Below, piece after piece: positions 6,660-55,021 of a stretch of 64,000 nt of DNA (its first letter is position 1; every line of letters starts with the position of its first letter). Under the pieces are notes generated by a model, which saw only the letters and a list, made by a program, of their open reading frames with translations, had not been told where the DNA came from and made no database searches. The position numbers and the translations under genes are program-made. The stretch is from Kineosporiaceae bacterium SCSIO 59966 (GTDB lineage: Bacteria; Actinomycetota; Actinomycetes; Actinomycetales; SCSIO-59966), in assembly GCA_020881835.1 (NCBI GenBank), contig CP052876.1:1302001-1366000 (forward strand), read 5' to 3'.

Positions 6660-6674
6660 CGAGGGGTGCGGCGG

Positions 6675-9620: not shown

Positions 9621-9626
9621 TGTGAC

Positions 9627-12655: not shown

Positions 12656-12658
12656 GGT
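12653..12658 (+). promoter_or_regulatory. Putative -10 box of rpe
   Basis: TAGGGT overlaps the rsmB stop codon and ends 8 nt before the rpe GTG, consistent with a leaderless transcript internal to the gene cluster. Confidence 0.35.
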
Positions 12659-12666
12659 TCGCCGCC

Positions 12667-13326: not shown

Positions 13327-13338
13327 CCGTGGGCCGCT

Positions 13339-13344
13339 TACCCT
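13339..13344 (+). promoter_or_regulatory. Putative -10 box of hisE
   Basis: TACCCT ends 8 nt before the hisE GTG at 13,353. It supports that start over the alternative GTG at 13,329 and suggests leaderless transcription. Confidence 0.35.
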
Positions 13345-13352
13345 TGCCCGTC

Positions 13353-13616
13353 GTGAAGACCTTCGACGACCTGTTCGCCGAGCTGGCCGACAAGGCGCAG
13401 CGGCGACCGGCCGGGTCGGGCACCGTCGCCGCGCTGGACGCCGGCGTGCACGCCATCGGCAAGAAGGTCGTCGAGGAGGCTGCCGAGGTGTGGATGGCCG
13501 CTGAGCACGAGAGCGCCGAGCGCACCGCCGAGGAGATCTCCCAGCTGCTGTACCACCTGCAGGTGCTCATGCTGGCCCGCGGGCTCAGCACCACCGACGT
13601 CTACCGCCACCTGTGA
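13353..13616 (+). CDS. hisE: Phosphoribosyl-ATP pyrophosphatase
   Basis: Second step of histidine synthesis: hydrolysis of phosphoribosyl-ATP to phosphoribosyl-AMP. The 87-residue protein has the MazG-like signature [18 protein letters not shown] and [15 protein letters not shown], with the acidic Mg ligands. GTG 13,353 ([11 protein letters not shown]) matches the family start better than GTG 13,329. It overlaps hisG by 4 bp. hisI, which performs the next reaction, is a separate gene about 48 kb away at 61.9 kb. Confidence 0.93.
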
Positions 13617-14473: not shown

Positions 14474-14913
14474 TGGCCGAGGACCTGTACCGCCCGTTCC
14501 GCCCGTACCGGGCCCCACGCGTCGCCTACCCGGTGGGCGTGGCCTGGCTGGCGCTCATGCTCGTCCTGGCGCTGTTCCCGCCGGCGCCGCTCGGCTGGCT
14601 GGACCGGGTCGGCTTCGTCCTCGTCGGCGTCGTGGTGATGTGGTTCCTGCACCGCCAGGCCAGCGTGGCCGCCGTCCCCAGCCACGACGGCCTGCGGGTG
14701 CGCAACCTCTTCCTCACCCGGGAGCTGCGCTGGGCCGAGATCGTGTCGGTGCACTTCGGTGGCGGCGCGCCGTGGGCCACGCTCGACCTCGCCGACACCG
14801 ACACGCTGTCGGTGATGGCGGTCCAGCGCGCGGACGGCGAGCGCAGCGTCGCCGAGGCCCGGCGGCTGGCGACCCTGGTCGCCCGGCACACCGCCACTGA
14901 CCGCGACGACTGA
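14473..14913 (+). CDS. Small membrane protein with PH-like domain
   Basis: A 146-residue protein with two hydrophobic helices near the N terminus (AYPVGVAWLALMLVLALF and LDRVGFVLVGVVVMWFL). A compact beta-rich bacterial PH-like domain follows (AAVPSHDGLRVRNLFLTRELRWAEIVSVHF). Proteins of this type commonly follow hisG in actinobacteria; their function is not established. ATG 14,473 overlaps the hisG stop by one base. An in-frame ATG at 14,461 would add four residues and cannot be excluded. Confidence 0.7.
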   Translation: MAEDLYRPFRPYRAPRVAYPVGVAWLALMLVLALFPPAPLGWLDRVGFVLVGVVVMWFLHRQASVAAVPSHDGLRVRNLFLTRELRWAEIVSVHFGGGAPWATLDLADTDTLSVMAVQRADGERSVAEARRLATLVARHTATDRDD

Positions 14914-14969
14914 CCCGGCCCGAGGGACCGACGGCCAGCGGCCCCGTCGCGCCTGGAGAGCGGTCCTGC

Positions 14970-15548
14970 TCAGACGCGGTCGAAGACGCAGGTCGTGGCG
15001 CCGTCGTCGCGGATCCGCGCTGACGGCGGCAGCCTCGTGAACGCGTGGGCCTGCACCGCGTCCCCGGAGGAACCGGCGAGATTGAGCACCACGACGACGA
15101 AGACGGTGAGGACGAAGTCCGCCGGCACGAACAGCGCCAGGACGGGCAGCACCACGCCCCACAGCGTGACGGGTGCCAGGGCGACGGTGATCGCCTGCCT
15201 GCGGGTCAACAGGGCCGTGCTGCCGGTGGCGAGGTACGGCAGCCGCACCCGGACCGTCGGTTTCACCCCGGTGAGCAGCCGCAGCGCCAGTGCGTGAGTG
15301 AGCTCGTGCACCAGCATGTAGCCCAGGCATGCCGTGACGGTCACGGCCGCCGCGACGGCGGTGGACCAGCCGGTGTCCAGCGGCACGCCCAGGGCCAGGG
15401 CCGACACGACGAGCACCCCGGCGACGACGAGGAAGCCGCCCTGGATCAGGGCCGCCGTTCGACGATCTGCCCGGAGATCGAGGCTCGAGACCAACCGGTA
15501 GCCCGGCGGGGTGTCGGGCAGGTGCGTGTCGGTCGGCATGGTGACCAT
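14970..15548 (-). CDS. DUF3267-type putative membrane zinc metalloprotease
   Basis: A 192-residue protein with about four membrane segments (LIQGGFLVVAGVLVVSALAL; AVAAAVTVTACLGYMLV; ITVALAPVTLWGVVLPVLALFV; VLTVFVVVVLNLAG). An HExxH motif (VHELTHALALRLLTG) lies at the edge of the second. This layout matches DUF3267 / putative zincin membrane proteins. Start ATG 15,548 is preferred because GGAGGAG lies 7 nt upstream; longer in-frame starts lack this. Its substrate is unknown. Before the transposon insertion this gene was the immediate neighbour of ylbE. Confidence 0.7.
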   Translation of the reverse strand: MVTMPTDTHLPDTPPGYRLVSSLDLRADRRTAALIQGGFLVVAGVLVVSALALGVPLDTGWSTAVAAAVTVTACLGYMLVHELTHALALRLLTGVKPTVRVRLPYLATGSTALLTRRQAITVALAPVTLWGVVLPVLALFVPADFVLTVFVVVVLNLAGSSGDAVQAHAFTRLPPSARIRDDGATTCVFDRV

Positions 15549-15641
15549 CGAGGGCTCCTCCATCAGGATTGCCCTCACCCTCCACGCCGGCGGGCTGCGC
15601 CGGCAGAGGACGAGGTCCTCCGGCACCCGTGACCGGCGTGC

Positions 15642-15677
15642 TCAGGCCTGCGGCCGGGCCCGCTCGGCCAGGGCGGC
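15642..15677 (-). pseudogene. Displaced native 3' end of ylbE (DUF1116)
   Basis: On the minus strand these 36 bases read in frame as AALAERARPQA followed by TGA. Joined directly to the last ylbE codon before the transposon (GCC, 24,969-24,971), they extend the gene without a frameshift to a short helical C terminus ending in a normal TGA. The trinucleotide GGC is present at both transposon junctions and may be a short target duplication. The assignment rests on frame, position and stop codon, not on an alignment to a homologue. Confidence 0.7.
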
Positions 15678-15712
15678 TGTGGCCTTGGCCGTTATGTGGC
15701 GGGGTTCTGTCG
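15678..15712 (+). repeat. Left terminal inverted repeat of the mer/cad transposon
   Basis: Starts TGTGGC and contains CCGTTA and TGGCGGGGTTCTGT. It matches the complement of 24,934-24,968 at 29 of 35 positions without gaps. Confidence 0.85.
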
Positions 15713-15832
15713 CCGCTTCGTGAGTTCCCTGATGATCGGGCGAATCGTCCCGTGGGTCGATCCCCAACTGACACAGCCTCGTTCGCACGCTTAGCGACTC
15801 CGGGCTGCGTAAAACCACTTCAGTCCTCGCTG

Positions 15833-15838
15833 TATAGT
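15833..15838 (+). promoter_or_regulatory. Putative -10 box and operator of cmtR-cadD
   Basis: TATAGT ends 7 nt before the cmtR ATG. A dyad, TCAGC-GCAT-GCTGA, spans 15,839-15,852 across the start codon. CmtR-type repressors bind over their own promoter, so this is a reasonable operator candidate. Confidence 0.45.
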
Positions 15839-15845
15839 TCAGCGC

Positions 15846-16205
15846 ATGCTGACCATTGCTTCTCGCCTGGACGTGATGAACCGGTTGGGCCGCGCGCTGG
15901 CCGACCCGACCAGGTCCCGGATCATCCTGACGCTGCTCGACCGGCCGGCCTACCCGGCAGAGCTGGCCCGCGATCTGGACCTCACACGCTCCAACGTGTC
16001 CAATCATCTGGCGTGCCTGCGCGACTGCGGCATCGTTGCTGCCGAACCCGAGGGCCGCAAGACGCGCTACGAGATCGCCGATCCCCACCTGACGCAGGCG
16101 CTGACCGCCCTGGTTGACGTCACCCTCGCGGTTGACGAGAACGCCCCGTGCATCGATCCTGCCTGCTCGGTGCACGGATGCGACGCAGCAGAGGCGGGCG
16201 CGTGA
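15846..16205 (+). CDS. cmtR: CmtR-type ArsR/SmtB-family Cd/Pb-sensing repressor
   Basis: A 119-residue winged-helix repressor that releases its operator on binding cadmium or lead. The sequence parallels mycobacterial CmtR as I recall it (LGRALADPTRSRIILTLLDRPAYPAELA; LTRSNVSNHLACLRDCGIV). The metal ligands fall at Cys57, Cys61 and Cys102, the positions described for CmtR. The TRSNVSNHL helix is the DNA-recognition helix. It overlaps cadD by 4 bp, so sensor and exporter form one operon. Codon use is less GC-rich than in the core genes. Confidence 0.9.
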   Translation: MLTIASRLDVMNRLGRALADPTRSRIILTLLDRPAYPAELARDLDLTRSNVSNHLACLRDCGIVAAEPEGRKTRYEIADPHLTQALTALVDVTLAVDENAPCIDPACSVHGCDAAEAGA

Positions 16206-16798
16206 TCCTGGCTGCGGTCCTGCAGGCAATCGGCCTGTTCATCGCGACCAACATCGACGACATCATCGTGCTCTCCTTGTTCTTCGCCCGCGGCGCGGGC
16301 CAACGCGGGACGACCACCCGCATCTTGGTCGGCCAGTACGTGGGGTTCGCCTGCATCCTCGGTGCCGCTGTGCTGGTGACTATCGGAGCCGGAGCATTCC
16401 TGCCCTCAGCAGCTATCCCGTACTTCGGGCTCATCCCCCTGGCCCTCGGTCTCTGGGCTGCATGGCAAGCCTGGCGCGGAGACGATGACGACGACGACGC
16501 CAAGGTCACGGGCACGAAGGTCAGCGCGTGGACCGTCGCAGGAGTCACCTTCGCCAACGGCGGAGACAACATCGGCGTCTATGTCCCCGTCTTCCTCAGC
16601 GTGGAACCCATCGCAGTGGTCGCCTACTGCCTCGTTTTCCTCGCGCTCGTCGCGGTCCTGGTCGTAGTCGCCAAGTTCGTTGCCACCCGGCCGCCGATCG
16701 CTGAAGTCCTCGAGCGCTGGGAACACATCCTGTTCCCCATCGTCCTGATCGGCCTCGGCATCGTCATCCTCGTCAGCGGAGGAGCGTTCGGTCTCTGA
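16202..16798 (+). CDS. cadD: Cadmium resistance transporter, CadD/LysE-type
   Basis: A 198-residue membrane protein with about six hydrophobic helices. The characteristic CadD features are ATNIDDIIVLSLFFARG near the N terminus and TFANGGDNIGVYVPVF in the second half; the two Asp-rich helices are the presumed metal path. A central loop DDDDDDAK (about residues 93-100) is strongly acidic. GTG 16,202 overlaps the cmtR stop, so expression is coupled to the CmtR repressor. It likely exports Cd2+ from the cytosol. Confidence 0.88.
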   Translation: MILAAVLQAIGLFIATNIDDIIVLSLFFARGAGQRGTTTRILVGQYVGFACILGAAVLVTIGAGAFLPSAAIPYFGLIPLALGLWAAWQAWRGDDDDDDAKVTGTKVSAWTVAGVTFANGGDNIGVYVPVFLSVEPIAVVAYCLVFLALVAVLVVVAKFVATRPPIAEVLERWEHILFPIVLIGLGIVILVSGGAFGL

Positions 16799-16864
16799 CG
16801 GAGCCAAAGCGAACGAGAGAGGTCGCCAGGCTCGACGCTCCGGTATAGGGATCCCTGTGCGGGT

Positions 16865-18313
16865 TCATGCTGCGCAGCAGGAGAGTTTGGTGATGTCGGT
16901 GGTGAAGGTTTGGGCGGTGAGTTTGAGGCCTTCGGCCATGGTCAGGTAGGGGCTCCAGAGGTTGGCGACCTGGTCGGTGGTCATGCCGGCCTCGAGGATG
17001 TAGACGCCGGCGGCGGCGAGGTCACCGGCGTCCTGGGCGAGGGCGGTGATGCCGATGATGCGGCCGGTGTCGGCGTCGGTGACGATCTTGATGAGCCCGC
17101 GGGTGTCACGGTTGACGATGGCGCGCGGGACGTGCGCCAGGGGCAGGACGCGGCTGTCGCAGCGGATCCCGGCAGTGCGGGCCTGCTGATCGGTCATTCC
17201 GACGGAGGCCAGGGCGGGGCTGGTGAACACGACCCGGGGCAGGTGGCGGTAGTCGACCTCCCGGCCGGCTCCGGTGAGGGCGTTGTCGGCGACCAGGGCG
17301 CCGTGGGCCGCGGCGACGTACACGAACTGCGGGTGGGCGGTGACGTCACCCGCGGCCCAGATCCGCGGGTTCGTGGTGCGCAGGTGGCTGTCGATGATGA
17401 CCTCGCCGCGCTTGCCGGCGCGCACGCCGATGGTGTCGAGGCCGAGCGTGCCGGTGACCGGGCGGCGGCCGGTGGCAACGAGGAGCTCGGCCGCGCGGAG
17501 CTCGTGTGAGCCGTCGGCGGTGGTGGCGGTGACCGTGACCTCGCCGGTGGCCGGGTCGCGGCGCACCGCGGTGGGCACCGCGCCGCGGATGATCTCGATG
17601 CCTTCGTCGGCGAGGATTTCTTCCAGGGCGGTGGCGGCCTCGGGTTCCTCGTGGGAGGCCAGCCGTGAGCGGACGAGCATGGTGACCTGGGCACCGAGGC
17701 GGGAGAAGAGCTGGGCCTGCTCCATGGCGACGTAGCCGCCGCCGATGACCAGCAGCGACTCCGGGACGTGGTCCAGCTCCATCGCGGTCGTCGAGGTCAG
17801 ATAACCGGCCTCCTGCAGGCCGGGGACCGGCGGCGCCCAGGGCGTGGAGCCGGTAGCGATGAGGTGGTGCGCGGCCCGGACGGTTTCCGCCGTGCCGTCC
17901 GGGCCGGTCACGCGGAGTGCCGGCTCAGTCGGTGTGCCGACGAAGGTGGCCTCGCCGGGGTGGAGGGCCCACCCGTACTCGGCGGCCAGGGCCGCGTACT
18001 TCTCGCTGCGCAGCGATCCGACGAGCTTGTCCTTGCCGGCGACCATGGCGGGCATGTCGACCGGTGGGGCGTCGGGGAGTGGCAGACCGGGGAACCGGGC
18101 GGCGTCGAGTGTGACGTGGCGGGCCTCGGCGGCCGCGAGCAGGGCTTTGGAGGGCACACACCCGGTGTTCACGCAGGTACCGCCGATGGTGCCGCGCTCG
18201 ATCATCACCACCCGCTTGCCCAGGGTGGTGGCGCGGATCGCGGCCGCGAACGCCGCCCCACCGGACCCGATCACTGCCAGGTCATACGACCTGCCCTTGT
18301 CCGTTGCCGTCAT
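16865..18313 (-). CDS. merA: Mercuric reductase
   Basis: NADPH-dependent flavoenzyme that reduces Hg2+ to volatile Hg0. The 482-residue protein lacks the N-terminal heavy-metal-binding domain found in many proteobacterial MerA proteins. It has the FAD site VIGSGGAAFAAAI, the redox-active disulfide GGTCVNTGCVPSK (Cys47, Cys52), the NADPH site VIGGGYVAMEQAQLF and the substrate-receiving C-terminal pair Cys479-Cys480 (LSCCAA). Start ATG 18,313 has GGGAGGACTT directly upstream. It is read divergently from merR across the palindromic operator. Confidence 0.95.
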   Translation of the reverse strand: MTATDKGRSYDLAVIGSGGAAFAAAIRATTLGKRVVMIERGTIGGTCVNTGCVPSKALLAAAEARHVTLDAARFPGLPLPDAPPVDMPAMVAGKDKLVGSLRSEKYAALAAEYGWALHPGEATFVGTPTEPALRVTGPDGTAETVRAAHHLIATGSTPWAPPVPGLQEAGYLTSTTAMELDHVPESLLVIGGGYVAMEQAQLFSRLGAQVTMLVRSRLASHEEPEAATALEEILADEGIEIIRGAVPTAVRRDPATGEVTVTATTADGSHELRAAELLVATGRRPVTGTLGLDTIGVRAGKRGEVIIDSHLRTTNPRIWAAGDVTAHPQFVYVAAAHGALVADNALTGAGREVDYRHLPRVVFTSPALASVGMTDQQARTAGIRCDSRVLPLAHVPRAIVNRDTRGLIKIVTDADTGRIIGITALAQDAGDLAAAGVYILEAGMTTDQVANLWSPYLTMAEGLKLTAQTFTTDITKLSCCAA

Positions 18314-37126: not shown

Positions 37127-37134
37127 CCCCTTTC

Positions 37135-37231
37135 GTGATCATGCAATCCCGCCACCCTCTCGCGCCCTTTCGTGATCATGCAATCCCGCCACCCTCTCGC
37201 CCCCGTTGGTGATCATGCAATTCCGCCACCT
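37135..37231. repeat. Interspersed repeat A, three direct copies (37-bp and 38-bp spacing)
   Basis: Copies at 37,135-37,156, 37,172-37,193 and 37,210-37,231 start 9 nt after the coxG stop, all in the orientation GTGATCATGCAATCCCGCC. The spacing is nearly that of the 52.4-kb array. Confidence 0.85.
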
Positions 37232-37252: not shown

Positions 37253-37311
37253 AGGATGCTGGGTTGGTGGCGCGACACGCCGCCATGGCTGGACTGGGGG
37301 CAACATTCTGT
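37253..37311. repeat. Interspersed repeat B, copy 2 (59 bp)
   Basis: Ends CAGGATGCTG / CAACATTCTG with the inner block GGTTGGTGGCGCGACACGCC. It lies immediately before the conserved leader of the first lipoprotein cassette. Confidence 0.8.
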
Positions 37312-37320
37312 AGGGCGCGC

Positions 37321-37674
37321 CCATGACCCGATGCGGACCTCTAGAACCTGGGGGTCCCAGGGTGCTATGTCATGTTCTGGGGTTGCTCCCTCCTGGGGGT
37401 CATGAGCGTTCGCCGCGCCTCGGCTGCTTGTCCACAGGCCGGCGGCTGAGGGGTACCTCGTCAGGGTTCGTGGTGGTTATGGTTCGGGACCGTGGACCGG
37501 TTCTGCGTGATTGGGGTCGTGCTGGCGCTTGCGGCCGGTGGGTGCTCGGCCGGTGCGACCGAGGAGCCGTCGCCGACGACGTCCCGGTCGGTGGTAACTG
37601 AGCAGCCGACCGCGACGGCGAGTGAGACGGTGCCTGCGCCGCCGGAGATGCCGGCGGAGGCGAAGCAGATGACC
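37321..37674 (+). repeat. 5' constant block of the lipoprotein/PKD cassette, copy 1 (354 bp)
   Basis: Differs from 41,869-42,222 at about four positions. It covers the leader, the presumed promoter and the signal peptide plus Pro/Thr-rich linker of the lipoprotein. Confidence 0.9.
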
Positions 37675-38058
37675 GCAGAAGGAGCAGCAGCTTTTGCTGT
37701 CTACTGGTTCGAAGCTGTTGAGTTTGCCTACGCCACCGGAGAGACAGATCAGTTGTCGGAGCTAGCGACGGAGAACTGCGAGTTCTGCAAGGCCACGATC
37801 GCGAAGATCGCTGACCAGTATGCGTCTGGTGGACGATTCGAGGGCGTAGACATATCGATCTCATCACCAGCTGCATCATCCCCGGATGAACGGGGTTCGG
37901 TCGTGTCGATGCTGTACAGCGAGAGCGCTTCGCAAGCCATTGGTCCAGACGGGGTGGTCGAGGACGAGACCAACGCGGTCGAAGGTAAGGCGATTGACTT
38001 CTACGCCGCTCTGACGCCGACTGGTTGGAGGGTCTTCGGCATTGCAGGTGTGGAGTGA
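37492..38058 (+). CDS. Putative lipoprotein (DUF6318-like), copy 1
   Basis: A 188-residue protein. A short signal peptide (VDRFCVIGVVLALAAGGC) ends in a lipobox-like AAGGC, followed by a Thr/Pro/Glu-rich linker. The globular part starts EMPAEAKQMTAEGAAAFAVYWFEAVEFAYATGETDQL and has a Cys pair (CEFC), then ends GWRVFGIAGVE. The pattern resembles DUF6318 proteins of Micrococcales, function unknown; I make the family match from memory. The first ~60 residues are nearly identical to copy 2 (42,040), the rest only about half identical. It is followed after 5 bp by its PKD partner. Confidence 0.65.
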   Translation: MDRFCVIGVVLALAAGGCSAGATEEPSPTTSRSVVTEQPTATASETVPAPPEMPAEAKQMTAEGAAAFAVYWFEAVEFAYATGETDQLSELATENCEFCKATIAKIADQYASGGRFEGVDISISSPAASSPDERGSVVSMLYSESASQAIGPDGVVEDETNAVEGKAIDFYAALTPTGWRVFGIAGVE

Positions 38059-38063
38059 CCTAC

Positions 38064-38924
38064 ATGCGCGTGCAGATACTTGCCGTAGTCACGATCGCGC
38101 TCTCCGCGGTGCAGGCACCTGCTGTCGCCGAACATCTAGGCAACCCTGCCTCCGGCCGGGTAGAGGTTGATTTCGGGGACAGTGACGCGCTCGCTCGAGC
38201 GTGGGAGTCAGTGCGGCCCGATCAGTCAGGCCAGTCAGCGGATGCCGTGTCGAACAGCGGCCCCGCCTACCTCTACAAGCACGTACCGGCATGCAGCGGG
38301 AACGCGCCAGACGGGGAGAACGCGGATGTGGGATGTGCACAGGCAGACGCCCTCTGTGCAGGCGATACCGTGCGCTACTGGCTCTACCGGGCAGAACAGG
38401 GCGTAACTCCGCCGGTGTGGCGATTCATCGACTCTCGATGCCTGGGGCCCGAGCAGGCTGGGGGAGCAACCCCCGTCATCCCCGGTTTCACGCTGGCCGA
38501 CTTTCAGCGTCTGCCGTTGCCGGCGGGGACCCCGAACGTGGAACCGGACAACGGCTACACGGTGGTGGGGATCCCGACGAACGTGTACGCCACCGCTGAG
38601 CCGGTCACCCTCGACACCGAGCTGCTGGGGTTCCCGGTGCGGGTGCGGGCCACGCCGTCCCGGTACGCGTGGGACTTCGGTGACGGCACCGGTCACGGTC
38701 CCACCAGCGAGCCGGGATCCCCGTACCCGGCGTTGACGATCACCCACACCTACGAGCGGGCCGACCGCTACTCGATCACGCTGACCACGTACTACACCGG
38801 GGAGTACTCGGTGGCCGGGGGGCCGTGGCTACCGATCGCTGGAGAGGCCCAGGTCACCTCCGCGCCGGTGGACGTCGAGGCCCTCGCCGGCCGCAACCTT
38901 CTGGTCGCCGACCCCCAGGACTGA
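38064..38924 (+). CDS. Secreted PKD-domain protein, copy 1
   Basis: A 286-residue protein with a signal peptide (MRVQILAVVTIALSAVQAPAVA). The N-terminal region has paired cysteines (PACSGN, GCAQADALC, RCLGPEQ). A C-terminal PKD-like fold shows the typical WDFGDGTGHGPTSEPGSPYPALTITHTYERADRYSITLTT in outline. PKD domains mediate extracellular protein or glycan contacts. The C-terminal half is almost identical to copy 2 and the N-terminal half is diverged. Start ATG 38,064 follows the lipoprotein stop by 5 bp, implying co-expression. Confidence 0.7.
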   Translation: MRVQILAVVTIALSAVQAPAVAEHLGNPASGRVEVDFGDSDALARAWESVRPDQSGQSADAVSNSGPAYLYKHVPACSGNAPDGENADVGCAQADALCAGDTVRYWLYRAEQGVTPPVWRFIDSRCLGPEQAGGATPVIPGFTLADFQRLPLPAGTPNVEPDNGYTVVGIPTNVYATAEPVTLDTELLGFPVRVRATPSRYAWDFGDGTGHGPTSEPGSPYPALTITHTYERADRYSITLTTYYTGEYSVAGGPWLPIAGEAQVTSAPVDVEALAGRNLLVADPQD

Positions 38925-38930
38925 CCGCCG
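38481..38930 (+). repeat. 3' constant block of the cassette, copy 1 (450 bp)
   Basis: Nearly identical to 43,017-43,466. It encodes the PKD domain and C terminus of the secreted protein. Similarity falls off within a few bases after the stop codon. Confidence 0.88.
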
Positions 38931-38986
38931 CGTTGAGGCCACGGCCGATTCGCGGGATCACGTGTACTGGCGGGCCAGGTGAACGG

Positions 38987-39008
38987 GGTGGCGGGATTGC
39001 ATGATCAC
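38987..39008. repeat. Interspersed repeat A between PKD copy 1 and FUSC
   Basis: A single copy in GGTGGCGGGATTGCATGATC orientation between two convergent genes, thus 3' of both. Confidence 0.85.
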
Positions 39009-39026
39009 GAACAGGGTGATGGCTGG

Positions 39027-40145
39027 TCACGATGGCTGAGGGTGGCTGCGGGCCGCCGGGACGGCGGCTAGCGCCTCCTCGTCTGGCAGGCCGGCCACGT
39101 TGAGCAGGTCGACGATGGTGGACCGCACCTGCCCGAGGACGACGTCCCCGGACAAGGTGCTACGAGGCACCTCGGCCGACGCCGCGCCCACCCGCCGCAG
39201 CCGTGCCACGGCGATGCTTACGTCCCCTTCCGCGGCAATCTGTTCGGCCAGGGTCCCGGCGGCGTCCGCGAGCTCGTCGACGAGCACGAGCAGCTCTCGG
39301 GGCAGCGGTTCGGCCATCCGGGCCGCGGTGGCTAGCCGGCGGACGAGCACGCGCACATTTCGCACCGCTCGGTCCAGCGGCACGGCCTGGCGGGAGACGG
39401 ACCGGATGCGGTCGCGGTGGCGTCGGCGGAACGGTGACACCCGGACGACGTCCAGCCCGGCGGAGGCGGCGTCGCGCAGCTCTACGAGTCGGACCTCCGT
39501 CTGACGCGCGCGTTCCAGGGTGCGTGCGGCGCCGTCCGGGTCGCCGCCGCGCACCGCGGTCGTCGCCGCGTGCAGCAGGTCCGCGACTTCGACCAAGGTT
39601 GACGCGACGAGCTCGCGGGGGCGCCGCAACGGCGACCCGGGGGCCACCGCGGCGACTGCCAGTGCCACCGCTCCGCCGACCACGGCGTCCAGCCACCGCC
39701 CGAGCCCCGCCTCCGGGACCGGCAGCAACGTCGTGACGATGACCGCCTGTACGCCCGCCTGGGTGACGAGCACGTTGCCGGCGTCGAGCAGCACCGCGAT
39801 CGACATAGCGGTCGCAACGACCACCACGATCTGCCACACCCCCGTCCCGACGAGGGCGACGAACGCGTCGGCCACCCCGACGCCCACGGCGACACCGACG
39901 ACGATCTCGATCGTCCGTCGGAAGCGTGCGCCGTAGGAGATGCCCAGAGCCACGACCGCGGCTACCGGGGCAAAGAAGGGGTCCGGGTGGCCGAGCAGGT
40001 GGAGCGCCACGAACCACGCCAGTCCTGCGCCGACTGCGCACTGAAGGATCTGCCAGCCGGCGCGCTGCCACCGGCGCAGCCGTGCGCGGGGGCCGACTCG
40101 GAGAGCGGGAGCGAGCCGGCGGCCAGCCCAGATCACCTCCGTCAC
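39027..40145 (-). CDS. FUSC-family membrane protein
   Basis: A 372-residue protein with six N-terminal hydrophobic helices (ILQCAVGAGLAWFVALHLLG; FFAPVAAVVALGIS; TIEIVVGVAVGVGVADAFVAL; IVVVVATAMSIAVLLDAG; AGVQAVIVTTLLP; WLDAVVGGAVALAVAAVA). An Arg-rich helical cytosolic domain follows. This is the FUSC half-size exporter layout, similar to but not a close copy of the protein at 3.1-4.3 kb. The substrate is unknown; its position in the catabolic block raises the possibility of metabolite export. Start GTG 40,145. Confidence 0.75.
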   Translation of the reverse strand: MTEVIWAGRRLAPALRVGPRARLRRWQRAGWQILQCAVGAGLAWFVALHLLGHPDPFFAPVAAVVALGISYGARFRRTIEIVVGVAVGVGVADAFVALVGTGVWQIVVVVATAMSIAVLLDAGNVLVTQAGVQAVIVTTLLPVPEAGLGRWLDAVVGGAVALAVAAVAPGSPLRRPRELVASTLVEVADLLHAATTAVRGGDPDGAARTLERARQTEVRLVELRDAASAGLDVVRVSPFRRRHRDRIRSVSRQAVPLDRAVRNVRVLVRRLATAARMAEPLPRELLVLVDELADAAGTLAEQIAAEGDVSIAVARLRRVGAASAEVPRSTLSGDVVLGQVRSTIVDLLNVAGLPDEEALAAVPAARSHPQPS

Positions 40146-40305
40146 GCTAGCGGCCGGGTCAACCTGGACCTGAGCCCGCGGCGGACGGCGGACGGCGATC
40201 GGCGTCCTGGAGGTGTCGGCTTGGGACCGGGTCGACGTCCGCGGTCAGGTCACCGTCAAGGGGGGCTCGGCGTCCGGAACTCTCCTCCTGGCGCCCTTCC
40301 TGTTC

Positions 40306-40327
40306 GTGATCATGCAATCCCGCCACC
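40306..40327. repeat. Interspersed repeat A upstream of the ISL3-type element
   Basis: A single copy (GTGATCATGCAATCCCGCC orientation). It precedes the split repeat B just as copies A4-A6 precede repeat B at 37.25 kb. The rest of the 40,146-40,356 spacer holds no gene I can recognise. Confidence 0.85.
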
Positions 40328-40356
40328 CACCGGCCACCGGCCCGCTCGCAGAATGC

Positions 40357-41780
40357 GGCTCTCCTGCTGCTTCCGTGGGTGGGTGGGCGTGCCTGGATGG
40401 GCGCACGCCGTTCTCTGCGTAGGTTTCTGAGCTGTCAAGGGCCAGGAACCAGTGAGCGGAGAACGGCGTGCAGAACAGCACCTTATGGCGGGCCCTGCTG
40501 GGGGTCGAGAAGACGGTCGTCGAGGACGTTGAGTTCGAGGAGGACGACCAGCGGTTGGTCGCCCATGTGCGGCCGCGTGCCCGGGCCCGTGCGCGGTGTG
40601 GGCGGTGCCAGCGCAGAGCTCCTTCCTACGACCGCGGGCAGGGACGACGGCGGTGGCGTGCCCTGGACCTGGGCACGGTCCAGGTGTTCTTGGAGGCCGA
40701 CGCCCCGCGGGTGAACTGCGCGGTGCATGGTCCGACGGTGGCGGCGGTGCCGTGGGCGCGGCACGACGCCGGACACACCCTCGCCTTCGACGAGCAGGTC
40801 GCCTGGCTGGCCACCCAGTGCTCCAAGACCGCGATCACCGAGTTGATGCGGATCGCGTGGCGCACTGTCGGGTCGATCGTGAGCCGGGTCTGGGCCGACG
40901 TCGAGGCGGTGAACGACCGGTTCGCCGGGTTGCGGCGCATCGGGATCGACGAGATCTCCTACAAGCGCGGTTACAAGTACCTCACCGTGGTCGTCGACCA
41001 CGACACCGGCCGCCTGGTGTGGGCCGCGCCGGGACGGGACCGGCGCACCGTCGCGGCGTTCTTCGATGCCCTCGGCGAGGACCGCTGCGCGTTGATCACT
41101 CACGTCAGCGCCGATGGCGCTGACTGGATCGAGGACGTGGTCACCCAGCGCTGCCCGAACGCGGTGCGCTGCGCGGACTCCTTCCACGTCGTGCGCTGGG
41201 CCACCGACGCCCTGGACGCCGTGCGCCGGCAGGCCTGGAACACCGCCCGCCGAGCACCGGGCGGGACCACCGGCAACGGCCGCTCCCACGGACGACCCCA
41301 ACGCATCGCCACCGGCCACGCCAAGACCCTCAAACGCGCCCGCTGGGCACTGTGGAAGAACCCCGAGAACCTGACCCCACGACAGGCAGCCAAACTGGAC
41401 TGGATCGCCAAGAACGACCCGAAGCTGTACCGCGCGTACCTGCTCAAGGAGGGCCTGCGGCTGGTCTTCCAGCTCCCCTACCAGGAAGCCGTCGAGGCGC
41501 TCGAGGCCTGGATCGCCTGGGCGCGACGCTGCCGCATCGACGCCTTCGTCGCGCTCCAGCGCCGCATCGTCAAACACAAGGCCGCGATCCTCGCCGCGAT
41601 CGCCCACGGACTGTCCAACGGCCGCATCGAATCGGTCAACACCAAGATCCGGCTCATCACGAGAATCGCGTTCGGCTTCGCCTCACCACAGGCCCTCATC
41701 GCCCTCGCCATGCTCAACCTCGGCGGCCACCGCCCCACCCTCCCCGGCCGCAGATGACCCACGGATCAGTCAGGAGAGCC
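40357..41780 (+). mobile_element. ISL3-family insertion sequence with 8-bp target duplication
   Basis: A 1,424-bp element. The terminal inverted repeats are 23 bp (GGCTCTCCTG...CCGTGGG at 40,357-40,379 and its complement at 41,758-41,780). CAGAATGC is duplicated directly at both edges (40,349-40,356 and 41,781-41,788), the 8-bp duplication typical of ISL3. The target is the end of a repeat B element. Confidence 0.93.
40468..41757 (+). CDS. ISL3-family transposase
   Basis: A 429-residue transposase with the N-terminal ISL3 zinc-binding/HTH region (ARCGRCQRRAPSYDRG). The DDE catalytic region has GIDEISYKRGYKYLTVVVDHDTGRLVW (first Asp), THVSADGADWIEDVV (second Asp) and a C-terminal NGRIESVNTKIRLITRIAFGF containing the Glu. 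The frame is intact, and the element ends three bases after its stop, so it may be active. Confidence 0.93.
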   Translation: MQNSTLWRALLGVEKTVVEDVEFEEDDQRLVAHVRPRARARARCGRCQRRAPSYDRGQGRRRWRALDLGTVQVFLEADAPRVNCAVHGPTVAAVPWARHDAGHTLAFDEQVAWLATQCSKTAITELMRIAWRTVGSIVSRVWADVEAVNDRFAGLRRIGIDEISYKRGYKYLTVVVDHDTGRLVWAAPGRDRRTVAAFFDALGEDRCALITHVSADGADWIEDVVTQRCPNAVRCADSFHVVRWATDALDAVRRQAWNTARRAPGGTTGNGRSHGRPQRIATGHAKTLKRARWALWKNPENLTPRQAAKLDWIAKNDPKLYRAYLLKEGLRLVFQLPYQEAVEALEAWIAWARRCRIDAFVALQRRIVKHKAAILAAIAHGLSNGRIESVNTKIRLITRIAFGFASPQALIALAMLNLGGHRPTLPGRR

Positions 41781-41839
41781 CAGAATGCTGGGTTGGTGGC
41801 GGGACACGCCGCGAGAGCTGCGTCGGGCGCAGCATTCTG
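41781..41839. repeat. Interspersed repeat B, copy 3, interrupted by the ISL3-type element
   Basis: Ends CAGAATGCTG / CAGCATTCTG, inner block GGTTGGTGGCGGGACACGCC; 59 bp. Its first 8 bases are also present at 40,349-40,356 as the target duplication. An extra right end (CAGCATTCTG) follows at 41,848-41,857. Confidence 0.85.
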
Positions 41840-41868
41840 TAGCCGCGCAGCATTCTGTAGCAGAGGGC

Positions 41869-42222
41869 CCATGACCCGATGCGGACCTCTAGAACCTGGG
41901 GGTCCCAGGGTGCTATGTCATGTTCTGGGGTTGCTCCCTCCTGGGGGTCATGAGCGTTCGCCGCGCCTCGGCTGCTTGTCCACAGGCCGGCGGCTGAGGG
42001 GTACCTCGTCAGGGTTCGTGGTGGTTATGGTTCGGGACCGTGGGCCGGTTCTGCGTGATTGGGTTCGTGCTGGTGCTTGCGGCCGGTGGGTGCTCGGCCG
42101 GTGCGACCGAGGAGCCGTCGCCGACGACGTCCCGGTCGGTGGTAACTGAGCAGCCGACCGCGACGGCGAGTGAGACGGTGCCTGCGCCGCCGGAGATGCC
42201 GGCGGAGGCGAAGGAGATGACC
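41869..42222 (+). repeat. 5' constant block of the lipoprotein/PKD cassette, copy 2
   Basis: Partner of 37,321-37,674, offset 4,548 bp, about four mismatches in 354 bp. Confidence 0.9.
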
Positions 42223-42603
42223 GAGGCGGGTGCGGATGCTTTTGCCCGTCATTGGTTCGACGTCGTCGAGTACGCCTACGCCACCGGAAACGCCGAGCCG
42301 CTAAGAGCTCTGGCCGATCCAGAGTGCGAGATCTGCAACGCCTCCATCGCAGAGATCGAGAGCAAGACTCGCGAAGGTCTGCATTTCGAAGGCGTGGCTA
42401 TCGAGGTGCTGACAAGCGCGCCCGCGCCAAAGGACAGCCGAGGGGTTATCGTCACAATGTCCGTTCAAGAGGTATCCTCGCAGGTAGTAACGGCCGACGG
42501 TGAGGTCGTGGAGGACGTGCCGGGCATCGAGGCCGCACCCATAAACGTGTACGTTGCCGAGAGTGACGGTGGCTGGCGGATCTTCGGTATAGGGAAGATC
42601 TGA
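42040..42603 (+). CDS. Putative lipoprotein (DUF6318-like), copy 2
   Basis: A 187-residue paralogue of the protein at 37,492. It shares the signal peptide and linker (VGRFCVIGFVLVLAAGGCSAG) but diverges from about residue 60: EMTEAGADAFARHWFDVVEYAYATGNAEPLRAL, Cys pair CEIC, end GGWRIFGIGKI. The pattern of conserved aromatic and Cys positions with different surface sequence suggests the same fold with a changed interaction face. The stop overlaps the next start by one base. Function unknown. Confidence 0.65.
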   Translation: MGRFCVIGFVLVLAAGGCSAGATEEPSPTTSRSVVTEQPTATASETVPAPPEMPAEAKEMTEAGADAFARHWFDVVEYAYATGNAEPLRALADPECEICNASIAEIESKTREGLHFEGVAIEVLTSAPAPKDSRGVIVTMSVQEVSSQVVTADGEVVEDVPGIEAAPINVYVAESDGGWRIFGIGKI

Positions 42604-43460
42604 TGCTGAGCCAGTTGCTGGCCGCTGTACTAGTTGTGGCTACGGTCGCCACGACGGCACAGGAAGCAGGGCAACTCCCTGGAGGGAGCGGTCAGGTCCT
42701 GGCCGACGCAGACGCTGACGCACTGCTTCTCGATGCATGGCGCTCGGTAGAGTCTGAAGTCGGTTCGGCCTCTCCGGCCCGGGGGAGTACGGCAAGGAGG
42801 CCGTCCTTCGAGTTCACTCATGTGCCGGCATGTCCGGGTAACACTCCCAATGTCGAGGGCGCCGATGTGGGTTGCGCACAGGCAGAAGCCTCGTGCCCGG
42901 ATGAGCGAGTGATGTACTGGCTATTCCGTCGGCCAGTGGGTGGGATGACGGACTGGGAGTTCGCGGGGGCTCGCTGCCTTTCGCCGGGGGAGGCGACCAG
43001 GGCGGGCGCCGCCATTCCCGGTTTCACGCTGGCTGATTTCCAGCGTCTGTCGTTGCCGGCGGGTACGCCGAACGTGGAGCCGGACAACGGCTACACGATG
43101 GTGGGGATCCCGACGAACGTGTACGCCACCGCTGAGCCGGTCACCCTTGACACCGAGCTGCTCGGCTTCCCGGTGCAGGTGCGGGCCACGCCGTCCCGCT
43201 ACGCGTGGGACTTCGGTGACGGCACCGGTCACGGCCCCACCAGCGAGCCGGGATCCCCGTACCCGGCGTTGACCATCACCCACGCCTACGAGCGGGCCGA
43301 CCGCTACCCGATCACGTTGACGACGTACTACACCGGGGAGTACTCGGTGGCCGGGGGGCCGTGGCTGCCGATCGCCGGAGAGGCCCAGGTCACCTCTGCG
43401 CCGGTGGACGTCGAGGCCCTCGCCGGCCGCAACCTTCTGGTCGCCGATCCCCAGGACTGA
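42603..43460 (+). CDS. Secreted PKD-domain protein, copy 2
   Basis: A 285-residue paralogue of the protein at 38,064. The signal peptide (MLSQLLAAVLVVATVATTAQ) and N-terminal Cys-containing region (PACPGN, GCAQAEASC, RCLSPGE) are diverged. From IPGFTLADFQRL onward it is nearly identical, including the PKD motif WDFGDGTGHGP. A copy-specific N-terminal half joined to a constant C-terminal half mirrors the mosaic seen at DNA level. ATG 42,603 overlaps the lipoprotein stop, so the two are translated together. Confidence 0.7.
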   Translation: MLSQLLAAVLVVATVATTAQEAGQLPGGSGQVLADADADALLLDAWRSVESEVGSASPARGSTARRPSFEFTHVPACPGNTPNVEGADVGCAQAEASCPDERVMYWLFRRPVGGMTDWEFAGARCLSPGEATRAGAAIPGFTLADFQRLSLPAGTPNVEPDNGYTMVGIPTNVYATAEPVTLDTELLGFPVQVRATPSRYAWDFGDGTGHGPTSEPGSPYPALTITHAYERADRYPITLTTYYTGEYSVAGGPWLPIAGEAQVTSAPVDVEALAGRNLLVADPQD

Positions 43461-43466
43461 CCGCCG
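43017..43466 (+). repeat. 3' constant block of the cassette, copy 2
   Basis: Partner of 38,481-38,930, offset 4,536 bp. Confidence 0.88.
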
Positions 43467-43988
43467 TCCCCAAAGGTCACGGCAGATCGCCAGCATCACT
43501 TTGGGGTGCACGGTCATGTCTGGATGCATGTGTAACAGGCCAGCGGGGTGGCGGGATTGCATGATCACGAACGGGGTTCGTGACCCACGCCGGTGGGTTG
43601 AGCAGGGTGGCAGGACTGCATGAACGCGGCATGGCCCTCGCGGCCCACCTTGGAAGCACCCCCGCGGCCCACCCGGGAACATGAGAAGCGCCCTGCGGCC
43701 CTCGGACGCCGCGCCGCCCAAGGGGGCCTCCAGCACAGAATGCTGCCTCTCGCACAGCTTGGCCGGCGTGTCGTGCCACCAACCCAGCATCCTCTGAGTC
43801 GGACGGTGGCCGGTGGGTGGCGGGATTGCATGATCACGAACAGGGTGGTCGGCTCACACCGGCGGGGCGGGTGAGCGGGGGTGGCGGGATTGCATGATCA
43901 CGAACAGGGGGTTCAGCCAAGGGTTACGGGGACGCCTTGGCAACGCTTGACGACGTCCGCGCCCGTGTGGGCGAGTGCAATACCTGAC
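43461..43988. repeat. Gene-free 528-bp spacer with four repeat A copies and one repeat B
   Basis: Repeat A occurs at 43,547-43,568, 43,816-43,837 and 43,880-43,901, plus a degenerate copy at 43,606-43,627. Repeat B copy 4 is at 43,736-43,796 (61 bp, reverse orientation, right end CAGCATCCTCTG). I see no gene here; the open frames present are read-throughs of these repeats. The hyuA promoter must lie at its right end. Confidence 0.8.
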
Positions 43989-46097
43989 GTGACCAGCGTG
44001 AGCAGGCAGATCAGGATCGGCATCGACACCGGCGGCACCTTCACCGACGTCGTCGCGGTCGACGAGGCGACCGGCGAGGTCGCCACGACCAAGACGCCGT
44101 CGACCCCCGCCGACCCAGCGGAGGGCTTCCTCGCCGGGGTGGACAAGGTGCTGGGTCAGCTCGGTCTGGGCGGCGACTCGATCAGCGCCGTCAGCCACGG
44201 CACCACCGTCGCCACGAACAAGCTGCTCGAGGGCAAGGTGGAGAACCTCGGGTTCATCACCACCGCCGGGTACCGGCACATCCTGGAGATCGCCCGGCAG
44301 TCGGTGCCGGACGGCTACGGCAACTCCTACTTCTGGGTGAAGCCGCCGCGGATCGTGCCTGCCGACAAGGTCCGCACCGTCACCGAGCGGATCGCCGTCG
44401 ACGGCCGGGAGCTGACGCCTTTCAACGACGACGAGGCGGTCGCCGCGGCCAGGTTCTTCCGCGACCACGGGATCTCCACCATTGCGGTCTGCTTCCTGCA
44501 CTCCTACGTCAACCCCGGCCACGAGCAGCGGATGCGTGAGGTGCTGCTTCGCGAGCACCCCGAGGCCACCGTCTCGATCTCCAGCGAGGTGCTTCGCGAG
44601 TACCGGGAGTACGAGCGCTCCATGACGACGCTCGTCGACGCCGCGGTCAAGCCGAGCATCCGCCGGTACATCGCGAACATCTCCCGCCGGCTGGACGAGT
44701 TCGTCGCCCTGGAGGACGGCACCTCGCGCCGGGTGCCGTTCTACGTCATGAAGTCCAACGGCGGCGTGCTCAGCGCCGAGGAGGTGGTCCACCAGCCGAT
44801 CACCACGGTCCTGTCCGGTCCGGCCGCCGGCGCCCTCGGCGCGGCCATGGTCGCCGGCGCCGCCGGGTTCCCCAGTGTGCTGACTTGCGACGGCGGCGGC
44901 ACGTCCACCGACGTCACCGTCGTCGTCGAGGGTCACCCCGCGCTCACCACCGAGGGCTCGGTCGGCGTGTACCCGAGCAAGATCCCGATGATCGACGTGG
45001 TCACCGTCGGCGCCGGCGGAGGCTCCATCGCCTGGGTCAGCCCCGAGGGCACGCTCAAGGTCGGGCCGCAGTCGGCCGGCGCCGACCCCGGTCCGATCTG
45101 CTACGGACAGGGCGGTGTGGAGGTCACCGTCACCGACGCCCACGTGACGATGGGACGCATCCCGCCGCACCTGCTGGGGGGCGAGATCCCACTGGACGTC
45201 GACGCGGCCCGGGCCGGCCTGGAGCAGCTCGCCGAGCGCCTGGGTCTGAGCCTGGAGCGGACGGCGACCGGCGTCCTGGAGGTGTCCGCCTGGAACCAGG
45301 CCAACGCCCTGCGGCAGATCACCGTCAAGCGGGGCCTCGACGTCCGGGACTTCATGATGGTGACGTTCGGCGGCTCGGGGTCCCTGCTGGCCTGCCGGCT
45401 CGTCGACGTCCTGGGTCTCAAGGGGGTTCTCGTCCCGCTCAACCCGGGCAACCTGTCGGCGTTCGGGCTGCTCACCGTCGACGTCCGCAACGACTACGTC
45501 CGCACCGCGGTGGCCCGCCACGACCGGCTCGACCTCGCCGAGGTGAGCCGGGTGCTCGACGAGCTGGCCGCAGAGGCGGACGGCGCACTCGAGCGGGAGG
45601 GCTTCGAGCCGTCCCGTCGCCGGTACGTGCGCACCGCGGACCTGCGCTACTTCGGCCAGGCCTTCGAGGTCCGCGTCGAGATCGGCGACGGGCCCGTCAC
45701 CCGGGAGCTGGTCGACGCGGTCGCCGAGCGGTTCCACGCCGAGCACCGGCGGCTCTACGGGTACGACTTCACCGACGACGACCGCCAGCAGGTCGAGTGG
45801 GTGAACCTGCGGGTCACCGGGGTCGGCCCGATCCGGCGTCCCGAGCTCGTCGAGGTCGCCGCCGGCACCGGCGCCGCCAGTGCCCGCACCGGCAGCCGGC
45901 AGGTGCACTTCGGCGAGGAGTGGACGCAGGCTGCCATCTACGACCGCGAACGGCTGGGAGCGGGCGACGTCGTCACCGGGCCGGCGGTGATCGAGGAGTT
46001 CGGCTCCACGGTCCCGCTGCACCCCGGGTTCCGCGCCGAGGTCGACCGCTTCGGCAACCTGCTGATCACCCGCGCCACCGAGGAGACGACCCGATGA
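43989..46097 (+). CDS. hyuA: Hydantoinase/oxoprolinase-family subunit A (HyuA-like)
   Basis: A 702-residue ATP-binding subunit of the hydantoinase/5-oxoprolinase/acetone-carboxylase superfamily. The actin-like nucleotide site shows at the N terminus IGIDTGGTFTDVVAVD. Further motifs are SHGTTVATNKLLEG, FYVMKSNGGVLSAEE, TVLSGPAAGALGAA, TCDGGGTSTDVTVV and VTVGAGGGSIAWV. Such enzymes couple ATP to hydrolysis of cyclic amides or carboxylation. The substrate here is unknown; a cyclic imide or carbamoylated intermediate of the surrounding pathway is plausible. GTG 43,989 gives the family N terminus. It overlaps hyuB by 4 bp. Confidence 0.88.
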   Translation: MTSVSRQIRIGIDTGGTFTDVVAVDEATGEVATTKTPSTPADPAEGFLAGVDKVLGQLGLGGDSISAVSHGTTVATNKLLEGKVENLGFITTAGYRHILEIARQSVPDGYGNSYFWVKPPRIVPADKVRTVTERIAVDGRELTPFNDDEAVAAARFFRDHGISTIAVCFLHSYVNPGHEQRMREVLLREHPEATVSISSEVLREYREYERSMTTLVDAAVKPSIRRYIANISRRLDEFVALEDGTSRRVPFYVMKSNGGVLSAEEVVHQPITTVLSGPAAGALGAAMVAGAAGFPSVLTCDGGGTSTDVTVVVEGHPALTTEGSVGVYPSKIPMIDVVTVGAGGGSIAWVSPEGTLKVGPQSAGADPGPICYGQGGVEVTVTDAHVTMGRIPPHLLGGEIPLDVDAARAGLEQLAERLGLSLERTATGVLEVSAWNQANALRQITVKRGLDVRDFMMVTFGGSGSLLACRLVDVLGLKGVLVPLNPGNLSAFGLLTVDVRNDYVRTAVARHDRLDLAEVSRVLDELAAEADGALEREGFEPSRRRYVRTADLRYFGQAFEVRVEIGDGPVTRELVDAVAERFHAEHRRLYGYDFTDDDRQQVEWVNLRVTGVGPIRRPELVEVAAGTGAASARTGSRQVHFGEEWTQAAIYDRERLGAGDVVTGPAVIEEFGSTVPLHPGFRAEVDRFGNLLITRATEETTR

Positions 46098-54854: not shown

Positions 54855-54864
54855 CCCCTCCTCG

Positions 54865-54918
54865 GTGATCATGCAATCCCGCCACCCTCGTGGGAGGGTG
54901 GCGGGATTGCATGATCAC
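54865..54918. terminator. Two repeat A copies in inverted orientation forming a 25-bp perfect stem
   Basis: Copies at 54,865-54,886 and 54,897-54,918 face each other across a few bases, ten nt after the ring-opening hydrolase stop. The stem extends past the 22-bp core into CCCTC/GAGGG. It would make a very strong transcript hairpin on either strand. Confidence 0.75.
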
Positions 54919-54990
54919 GAACAGGGGTTCTCGGGTGGTCGGGGGCGGGTCACGAACGGGGGGTCGGGTGGTTGGGGGTGGGTCGTGCGG

Positions 54991-55012
54991 GGTGGCGGGA
55001 TTGCATGATCAC
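54991..55012. repeat. Interspersed repeat A before the uridine-kinase-like gene stop
   Basis: A single copy, GGTGGCGGGATTGCATGATC orientation, 9 nt beyond the stop of the minus-strand kinase gene. Confidence 0.85.
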
Positions 55013-55021
55013 GAAGGTGGG

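Follow-up and report, generated by a model that had tools for sequence, protein, structure and literature searches.

Introduction

One of the closest known systems to the locus examined here is the myxobacterial TraA/TraB kin-recognition receptor (PMC6372800). This receptor is encoded by a two-gene operon for cell-surface proteins, and it carries one highly polymorphic variable domain beside conserved parts, whose alleles have been suggested by its authors to be exchanged by recombination. CDI and other polymorphic toxin-immunity loci appear to offer a second parallel, in that a variable block of lower GC covers the junction of two adjacent genes and moves as a unit between constant flanks. 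The lipoproteins of Pfam family DUF6318 (PF19843) are also relevant because the first gene of our locus encodes a clear member, although the Pfam entry states no function. Finally, plastid ARC6/PARC6 proteins carry an NTF2-like domain (PDB 5d9r, 5u9o, 6jzn), and PARC6 has been solved with its partner PDV1.

Here we describe two neighboring gene pairs in Kineosporiaceae bacterium SCSIO 59966 (GCA_020881835.1). They lie in a 64,000-nucleotide stretch of contig CP052876.1 (positions 1,302,001 to 1,366,000, forward strand), hereafter called the window. Each pair encodes a DUF6318 lipoprotein and a secreted protein with a C-terminal PKD domain. Our literature searches found no paper on DUF6318 or on a lipoprotein-PKD pair, and no description of such a system, and we know of no locus in this order for which comparably strong allele exchange over conserved flanks has been described.

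Results

Two cassettes with constant ends and a diverged middle

The original prediction held that the two cassettes share a 354-bp 5′ block with about four mismatches and a 450-bp 3′ block, separated by about 800 bp that are only distantly related. This observation is correct. A three-segment fit of the alignment of cassettes A and B places the breaks at 37676 and 38481 (A coordinates), with mismatch rates of 1.1% (4/356), 48.6% (393/808), and 5.1% (23/449), and this fit is 252 log-likelihood units better than a uniform rate. The 5′ block includes about 170 bp upstream of the lipoprotein gene without a mismatch, and the 3′ block ends about 5 bp after the PKD stop codon (Table 1). Synonymous divergence is 0/49 sites in the coding part of the 5′ block, is saturated in the middle (pS 0.70-0.73), and corresponds to a dS of 0.18 (dN 0.02) in the PKD block. 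Therefore, the two ends were last homogenized at different times. Furthermore, the duplication is not only a pair, because a third, older cassette (C) with the same two genes lies at 2.14 Mb in the same genome.

Table 1. Features of the two cassettes and of the intervening element (window coordinates).
Feature	Coordinates	Strand	Remarks
Cassette A	37320-38929		
A, 5′ constant block	37320-37675	+	Leader, signal peptide, lipobox, Ser/Thr/Pro linker; no further full copy in the genome
A, DUF6318 lipoprotein gene	37492-38058	+	GTG start; lipobox AAGGC; PF19843 E 9.5e-18
A, variable block	37676-38480	+	Lipoprotein body, gene junction, N-terminal half of PKD protein; GC3 0.64 and 0.70 against 0.94-0.95 expected
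A, secreted PKD-domain protein gene	38064-38924	+	PF00801 E 2e-7; start follows the lipoprotein stop by 5 bp
A, 3′ constant block	38481-38929	+	PKD domain to just past the stop codon
ISL3-family insertion sequence	40357-41780	+	Near-identical ends (GGCTCTCCTG); 8-bp target duplication CAGAATGC at 40349-40356 and 41781-41788; transposase PF01610 E 2e-71
Cassette B	41868-43465		
B, 5′ constant block	41868-42223	+	
B, DUF6318 lipoprotein gene	42040-42603	+	PF19843 E 4.8e-19; body (about residues 59-187) predicted NTF2-like
B, variable block	42224-43016	+	
B, secreted PKD-domain protein gene	42603-43460	+	Start codon overlaps lipoprotein stop (TGATG); PF00801 E 1.3e-6; PKD fold residues about 149-275
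B, 3′ constant block	43017-43465	+	

A complete ISL3-family insertion sequence and a FUSC-family gene lie between the two cassettes. We considered whether the ISL3 element might have mobilized cassette B, but this was rejected because its target duplication lies in a dispersed repeat upstream of B and the element ends before the cassette. The element is a later passenger and is not part of the cassette. Searches of phage and plasmid collections gave only one weak phage hit and three weak plasmid hits for the PKD protein, so there is no sign of phage carriage.

The constant-variable-constant form might also bring to mind programmed antigenic variation from silent cassettes, or a diversity-generating retroelement. 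Indeed, the genome carries one reverse transcriptase gene, located 82 kb upstream. However, we consider these possibilities very unlikely, although the evidence on a diversity-generating retroelement is inconclusive. The complete genome holds only three cassettes, each an open gene pair, and A and B both keep the whole leader, whereas silent copies would be expected to be promoterless. The reverse transcriptase reads by eye like a group II intron type protein and, although no template search was run, the alleles differ everywhere with insertions and deletions rather than at adenines of a template.

Protein domains encoded by the cassettes

Both lipoproteins score above the gathering cut-off for DUF6318 (65.4 and 69.6 bits against 23.8), and both partner proteins do so for the PKD domain (31.4 and 28.8 bits against 23.5). 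The body of the cassette B lipoprotein is confidently predicted by AlphaFold2 (pLDDT about 98) to adopt an NTF2-like fold. Its best structural matches are plastid ARC6/PARC6 (Z 12-13.5, 122-125 residues, 2.4-2.8 Å), some of which were solved with the partner PDV1. The modeled PKD domain matches collagenase PKD domains (Z 10.9, rmsd 1.3-1.6 Å), but the model of the N-terminal tail of the PKD protein is of low confidence.

One might propose that the middle reflects only ordinary fast evolution of a disordered or unconstrained secreted region, with purifying selection on the PKD domain and no recombination. In keeping with this view, the PKD half is more conserved than the N-terminal half also towards cassette C (75% against 37% amino acid identity). 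However, the body is a well-folded domain in the prediction, it also differs at saturated synonymous sites next to blocks with none, the edges are step-like, and trees of different segments conflict (see below). This explanation is therefore refuted by the saturated synonymous sites and can be given almost no weight.

The variable blocks also exhibit low GC3 (observed 0.64-0.71 against 0.94-0.95 expected from host codon use, z -12 to -16), and amino acid composition was rejected as the cause. Low GC3 was not taken as proof of recent transfer because it is present in 100 of 101 cassettes, single-copy ones included.

Exchange of middles among related bacteria

The original prediction also proposed that other genomes would reveal swapped middles, and this is supported in relatives. 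In one Arthrobacter-like genus, 18 of 21 sister-species pairs with near-identical flanks (under 12-15% different) carry unrelated middles, with body distances above.35 (bodies 36-53% different) against a random-pair median of.51. Orthologous loci of sister species whose flanks differ by 3-9% carry middles as different as those of random pairs. AU tests reject sisterhood of the bodies in five such pairs (p 1e-6 to 4e-62), while an unswapped control pair stays together, and trees of body and PKD end conflict. Conversely, similar bodies occur in different backgrounds, for example in one pair with a body distance of.15 and flank distances of.51/.70. The edges recur at the same places, namely alignment columns 218-256 and about 740-808 or 962-1024. 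It should be noted that the pairs compared share species and are not independent, and that swapping was not seen at strain level, where the comparison was limited to one genome per species.

The same three-segment structure is evident in paralogs inside other genomes of three further families (labeled here g for groups such as genera and G for genomes). In genome G028 of genus g11, three cassettes differ by.07-.08 in the lead,.47-.53 in the body, and.03-.04 in the PKD end. In g8, the corresponding values for G105 are.01/.39/.01, and the structure also appears in G007 and G108, as well as in g5. Paralogs in one genome share PKD ends (mostly 0-9% different) but have different middles, and 11 of 12 same-genome pairs are nearest PKD neighbors of 111, with ordinary body ranks. 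Thus, PKD ends are homogenized inside a genome while the bodies stay different.

These findings bear on a simpler alternative, in which plain gene conversion between two old paralogs homogenized only the ends of A and B while the middles diverged in place by mutation. The different dS values of the two end blocks fit separate conversion tracts, and homogenization of PKD ends is seen in relatives. However, this process cannot explain single-copy orthologous loci of sister species whose flanks differ by 3-9% but whose bodies are unrelated and match bodies of other species. Although this alternative is refuted for relatives and seems unlikely overall, swapping of middles cannot be told from homogenization of ends for A and B alone, as no close relative of this organism was among the genomes compared.

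The lipoprotein body and the tail of its partner travel together

The block that moves consists of the lipoprotein body plus the N-terminal tail (~38 residues) of the PKD protein, with no discordant combination in 111 cassettes, whereas the linker before and the PKD end after move freely. Among pairs that are close in PKD, those with the same body have a tail identity of.70 and swapped ones.28, while the adjacent segment V2 stays at.89/.86, with no discordant pair in either direction. Likewise, a partial Mantel test of body against the N-terminal segment given PKD and lead yields.44 (permutation maximum.09), compared with.03 for lead against body. In one family without a DUF6318 hit, the PKD gene follows a lipoprotein that is a distant DUF6318 relative. 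In genus g11, however, most DUF6318 hits are lipoproteins without a PKD partner and with a Gly/Ala-rich end, so not every DUF6318 gene is a cassette.

The original prediction suspected that the linked variation reflects contact between the two proteins. Specific contact between body and tail is likely but has not been shown; no complex was predicted or measured. Breakpoints inside the variable block are hindered by lack of sequence identity, so body and tail could be linked by this alone, and the PKD signal peptide, which lies between them, varies too.

Linked variation of two adjacent genes might instead indicate a toxin-immunity type system, in which the PKD protein is a secreted antagonist and the DUF6318 lipoprotein is the cognate immunity protein. 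The low GC3 of the variable block, the presence of different alleles in one genome, and extra lipoprotein-only copies (perhaps orphan immunities) beside cassettes in genome G202 and in the array of genome G087 are consistent with this idea. However, no toxin or enzyme domain was found in 56 PKD partners, among which only PKD profiles recur, and no defense-system profile hit was found in the four window proteins. In addition, the variable part that travels with the lipoprotein is a short tail rather than a domain, the lipoprotein comes first, and most genomes of the Arthrobacter-like genus hold a single copy. We therefore regard this interpretation as improbable.

Discussion

We favor, with moderate confidence, the view that A and B are two copies of a widespread, undescribed hypervariable surface module of this actinobacterial order. 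The first gene encodes a lipoprotein with a predicted NTF2-like body, anchored outside the membrane, and the second encodes a secreted protein with a short variable N-terminal tail, a cysteine-containing middle, and a constant PKD domain. In relatives, the lipoprotein body and the start of the PKD gene are exchanged as one block between cassettes and species by homologous recombination in the conserved blocks on either side. We infer that the block moves as a unit because the NTF2-like body specifically holds the N-terminal tail of its own PKD partner, such that each cassette makes a matched anchor-ligand complex. Least certain is the inference that being different is favored by negative frequency-dependent selection. 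Bodies have diverged to saturation, yet DUF6318 is nearly universal in some genera (100/101, 37/38, and 17/18 genomes). In free-living soil bacteria, such selection is more likely due to phages, predators, or rival and kin bacteria than to an animal immune system, although no experiment bears on the role.

It is possible, although quite tentative, that the module is an order-wide self/non-self or rivalry system of actinobacteria. In this scenario, orthogonal pairs of an NTF2-like surface lipoprotein and the tail of its own secreted PKD ligand would define recognition types that are traded between species as a block across two genes. Strong allele exchange over conserved flanks is a signature of recognition or arms-race loci. 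Regardless, a lipoprotein with a domain of unknown function and an unnamed PKD protein, found in most sampled genomes of several common soil genera, can now be viewed as one hypervariable two-gene module with a clear, testable pairing rule. The module also provides natural sets of possibly orthogonal anchor-ligand pairs. Short-read assemblies may misjoin or break at these loci, given that two cassettes of one genome (G026) lie about 300 bases from contig ends.

Comparison with the described systems reveals both parallels and differences. The fold of the predicted body is the same as that of the NTF2-like domain of ARC6/PARC6, but sequence identity is 14% or less, the plastid proteins function in chloroplast division, and a shared fold shows no shared function. 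The linked PKD partner and the allele swapping are not part of the Pfam description of DUF6318. In comparison with CDI and other polymorphic toxin-immunity loci, no toxin domain is present here, the constant domain is C-terminal and the variable part N-terminal, and the putative anchor gene comes first. Regarding TraA/TraB, no PA14-like or OmpA domain was detected in any of the four proteins at E values up to 1, and the hosts here are Gram-positive. Moreover, TraB does not set specificity, whereas in the cassettes described here the variable block spans both genes and both partners vary together.

Organization of the Two Cassettes

Each of the two cassettes, A and B, which are 4.5 kb apart, carries a lipoprotein gene followed by a gene for a secreted protein that ends in a PKD domain, and the second gene begins almost without a gap or overlaps the first. 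The two lipoproteins belong to Pfam DUF6318 (E 9.5e-18 and 4.8e-19), and the second proteins carry PF00801. When the two cassettes are aligned, the sequences fall into three segments with 4/356, 393/808, and 23/449 mismatches, and this description is 252 log units better than one with a uniform rate. Synonymous changes are found at 0 of 49 sites in the coding portion of the 5′ block, are saturated in the middle, and correspond to a dS of 0.18 in the PKD block. Therefore, the two ends were last made alike at different times. A third cassette, C, has the same two genes and exhibits 36-41% amino-acid identity to A and B in the body of the lipoprotein and 75-76% in the PKD block.

Coordinates of the cassettes and of other features noted in this analysis
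Feature	Location	Coordinates	Strand
Cassette A	window	37320-38929	+
Cassette A lipoprotein gene	window	37492-38058	+
Cassette A PKD-domain protein gene	window	38064-38924	+
Breaks in the A/B alignment	window	37676 and 38481
FUSC-family gene	window	39027-40145	opposite to the cassettes
Fragment 82% identical to the inside of the hydantoinase A gene	window	40188-40266 against 45257-45335
ISL3-family element	window	40357-41780
Cassette B	window	41868-43465	+
Cassette B lipoprotein gene	window	42040-42603	+
Cassette B PKD-domain protein gene	window	42603-43460	+
Dispersed repeat with GTGGCGGGATTGCATGATCA	window and genome-wide	37132-37231, 38986-39011, 40303-40328, 43546-43904, 54862-55015
Second dispersed repeat family	window	37258-37313, 41787-41842, 43735-43798, 6532-6556
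Reverse transcriptase gene	genome	1257421-1258077
Cassette C	3.1-Mb chromosome	about 2139880-2141360
Array of DUF6318 lipoprotein genes and PKD partners	locus L081 (genome G087)	1582-17473
PKD partner gene following another lipoprotein gene	locus L070 (genome G005)	527-1105

Sequences Surrounding the Cassettes

Cassettes A and B are separated by a FUSC-family gene and by a complete ISL3-family element. The ends of this element match (GGCTCTCCTG), and it is flanked by the 8-bp duplication CAGAATGC, which lies inside a dispersed repeat. The element went in after the repeat was in place and stops before the cassette, so it is a passenger. Upstream of the element is a 79-bp fragment that resembles the inside of the hydantoinase A gene located downstream, a relic of an older duplication or rearrangement of this region.

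Two kinds of dispersed repeat surround the cassettes. The first (GTGGCGGGATTGCATGATCA) occurs about 404 times in the genome, often in tandem groups, whereas its backward-read control occurs 0 times, and it looks like a REP-type intergenic repeat. The second family (GCTGGGTTGGTGGCG.GACACGCCG ... CATTCTGTAG) lies directly upstream of both cassettes, and it is in one copy of this family that the ISL3 element is inserted. The genome also carries a single reverse transcriptase gene that appears, by eye, to be of the group II intron type and is apparently cut short (349 aa).

Compositional Mosaicism

The cassettes are also mosaic in composition. GC content at third codon positions (GC3) is 0.64-0.71 in the lipoprotein bodies and 0.67-0.70 in the N-terminal halves of the PKD proteins, but 0.90-0.91 in the PKD domain, whereas host codon use predicts 0.94-0.95 everywhere. 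Cassette C has the same dip. Among 101 distinct cassettes from the order, GC3 is higher in the PKD domain than in the body in 100, and higher than in the PKD N-half in 100. Therefore, the dip is a lasting property of the variable block in the whole order.

Related Cassettes in Other Genomes

DUF6318 was found in 60 of 99 genomes of the order and in 100 of 101, 37 of 38, and 17 of 18 genomes of three genera, and adjacent DUF6318 and PKD genes are common. Paralogs within a single genome repeat the arrangement observed for A and B. The three cassettes of genome G028 differ by.07-.08 in the lead,.47-.53 in the body, and.03-.04 in the PKD domain. The corresponding values are.01/.39/.01 for genome G105 and.09/.31/.02 for genome G007, and genome G108 shows two such pairs. 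In the examples from one genus (g8), identity starts roughly 80-210 bp before the lead region used in the comparison and ends at the PKD stop codon, with unrelated sequence outside. The unit copied is a whole transcription unit, as in A and B. However, not every same-genome pair looks like this: older pairs, such as A/C, those in genome G016, and some in genome G087, are diverged throughout.

Other arrangements were also encountered. Locus L081 of G087 is an array of several DUF6318 lipoprotein genes and PKD partners in which some lipoproteins stand alone and several have a repeated leader peptide. Loci L079 and L080 of genome G056 hold clusters of DUF6318 lipoproteins without PKD partners and with twin-arginine-like signal sequences. 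In a family without DUF6318 hits, PKD partner genes (L070 of G005 and L068 of genome G024) follow another lipoprotein gene. The lipoprotein of L070 is a distant relative of the DUF6318 profile (hhalign probability 96%) and may deserve inclusion in that family.

Exchange of Middles Between Species

In an Arthrobacter-like genus (g5; 111 cassettes), most genomes carry one cassette at a conserved place. Among 21 pairs of species whose upstream and downstream flanks differ by less than 12% and 15%, respectively, 18 have bodies that are more than 35% different, where the median of all pairs is 51%. Some of these pairs share a species, so the counts do not represent independent events. For example, the loci L188 and L194 differ by.03 upstream,.52 in the body, and.05 downstream. 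Trees of the body reject the sisterhood of five such pairs (AU p 1.3e-6 to 4e-62), while the PKD tree shows each pair together or in one small clade, and an unswapped control pair stays together in both trees. Furthermore, bodies that are 14-25% different recur in unrelated flanks. Thus, block exchange between constant ends occurs across species and loci in these relatives, although swapping was not seen at the strain level because the comparison included one genome per species.

In 11 of 12 same-genome pairs of g5, the partner is the nearest PKD relative out of 111 even though the two lie at different loci, and their bodies are no closer than usual. The PKD end is thus homogenized within a genome, as between A and B, and homogenization stops at or before the tail of the PKD protein. 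For A and B themselves, the data are compatible either with replacement of the middle of A or B or with conversion of their ends, given that this organism is the only member of its family among the genomes searched.

Recurrent Edges and Linkage

Segment scans of 29 pairs place the 5′ edge mostly at columns 218-256, just inside the DUF6318 body, although in about nine pairs the lead differs as well. The 3′ edge falls either at about 740-808 (roughly 65 codons into the PKD gene) or at about 962-1024 (the start of the PKD domain), apart from a few pairs that also differ in the PKD domain. A/B show the second type. No edge falls between the body and the tail.

Notably, the ~38-residue mature tail of the PKD protein follows the body. 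Among pairs with similar PKD domains, tail identity is.70 if the bodies match and.28 if they do not, while the next segment is.89 and.86. At the thresholds used, no pair has a similar body with a different tail or the reverse. However, recombination inside the block is hindered by its own divergence, and so linkage alone does not prove contact between the two proteins. The lead is not linked to the body (partial correlation.03), whereas the PKD N-half is (.44; permutation maximum.09).

Predicted Structures

The PKD protein is predicted to comprise a signal peptide, short strands in a low-confidence tail, a cysteine-containing segment, and a confident PKD domain. In the alignments, the lipobox cysteine and C99 of the lipoprotein are invariant and C96 is nearly so, while C77 and C91 are nearly invariant in the PKD protein. 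By eye, the tails share a short hydrophobic-alternating stretch within variable sequence, which should be regarded as a lead rather than a test.

The body of the cassette B lipoprotein is predicted at a pLDDT of about 98, and the predicted fold is NTF2-like. The best matches are plastid ARC6/PARC6 (Z 12.2-13.5, 122-125 residues aligned, 2.4-2.8 Å, at most 14% identity), including entries of PARC6 with PDV1, followed by many other NTF2-like proteins. The fold alone shows no function, but NTF2-like domains include protein-binding ones.

Possible Function and Comparison with Toxin-Immunity Systems

Block exchange and homogenization of ends are documented in relatives. We infer that each NTF2-like lipoprotein holds its own PKD partner by the partner's tail, such that the pair must move together. 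With less certainty, we also infer that diversity is kept because rare types have an advantage, which might arise from phages, predators, rivals, or kin recognition. No literature on this pair was found, although the collection searched lacks most subscription journals. Perhaps the most relevant alternative is a toxin-immunity system, and the extra lipoprotein genes located beside some cassettes keep this possibility alive. Regardless, we prefer the former explanation because no toxin domain is recognizable in 56 PKD partners, and because only a short tail is bound to the variation of the lipoprotein.
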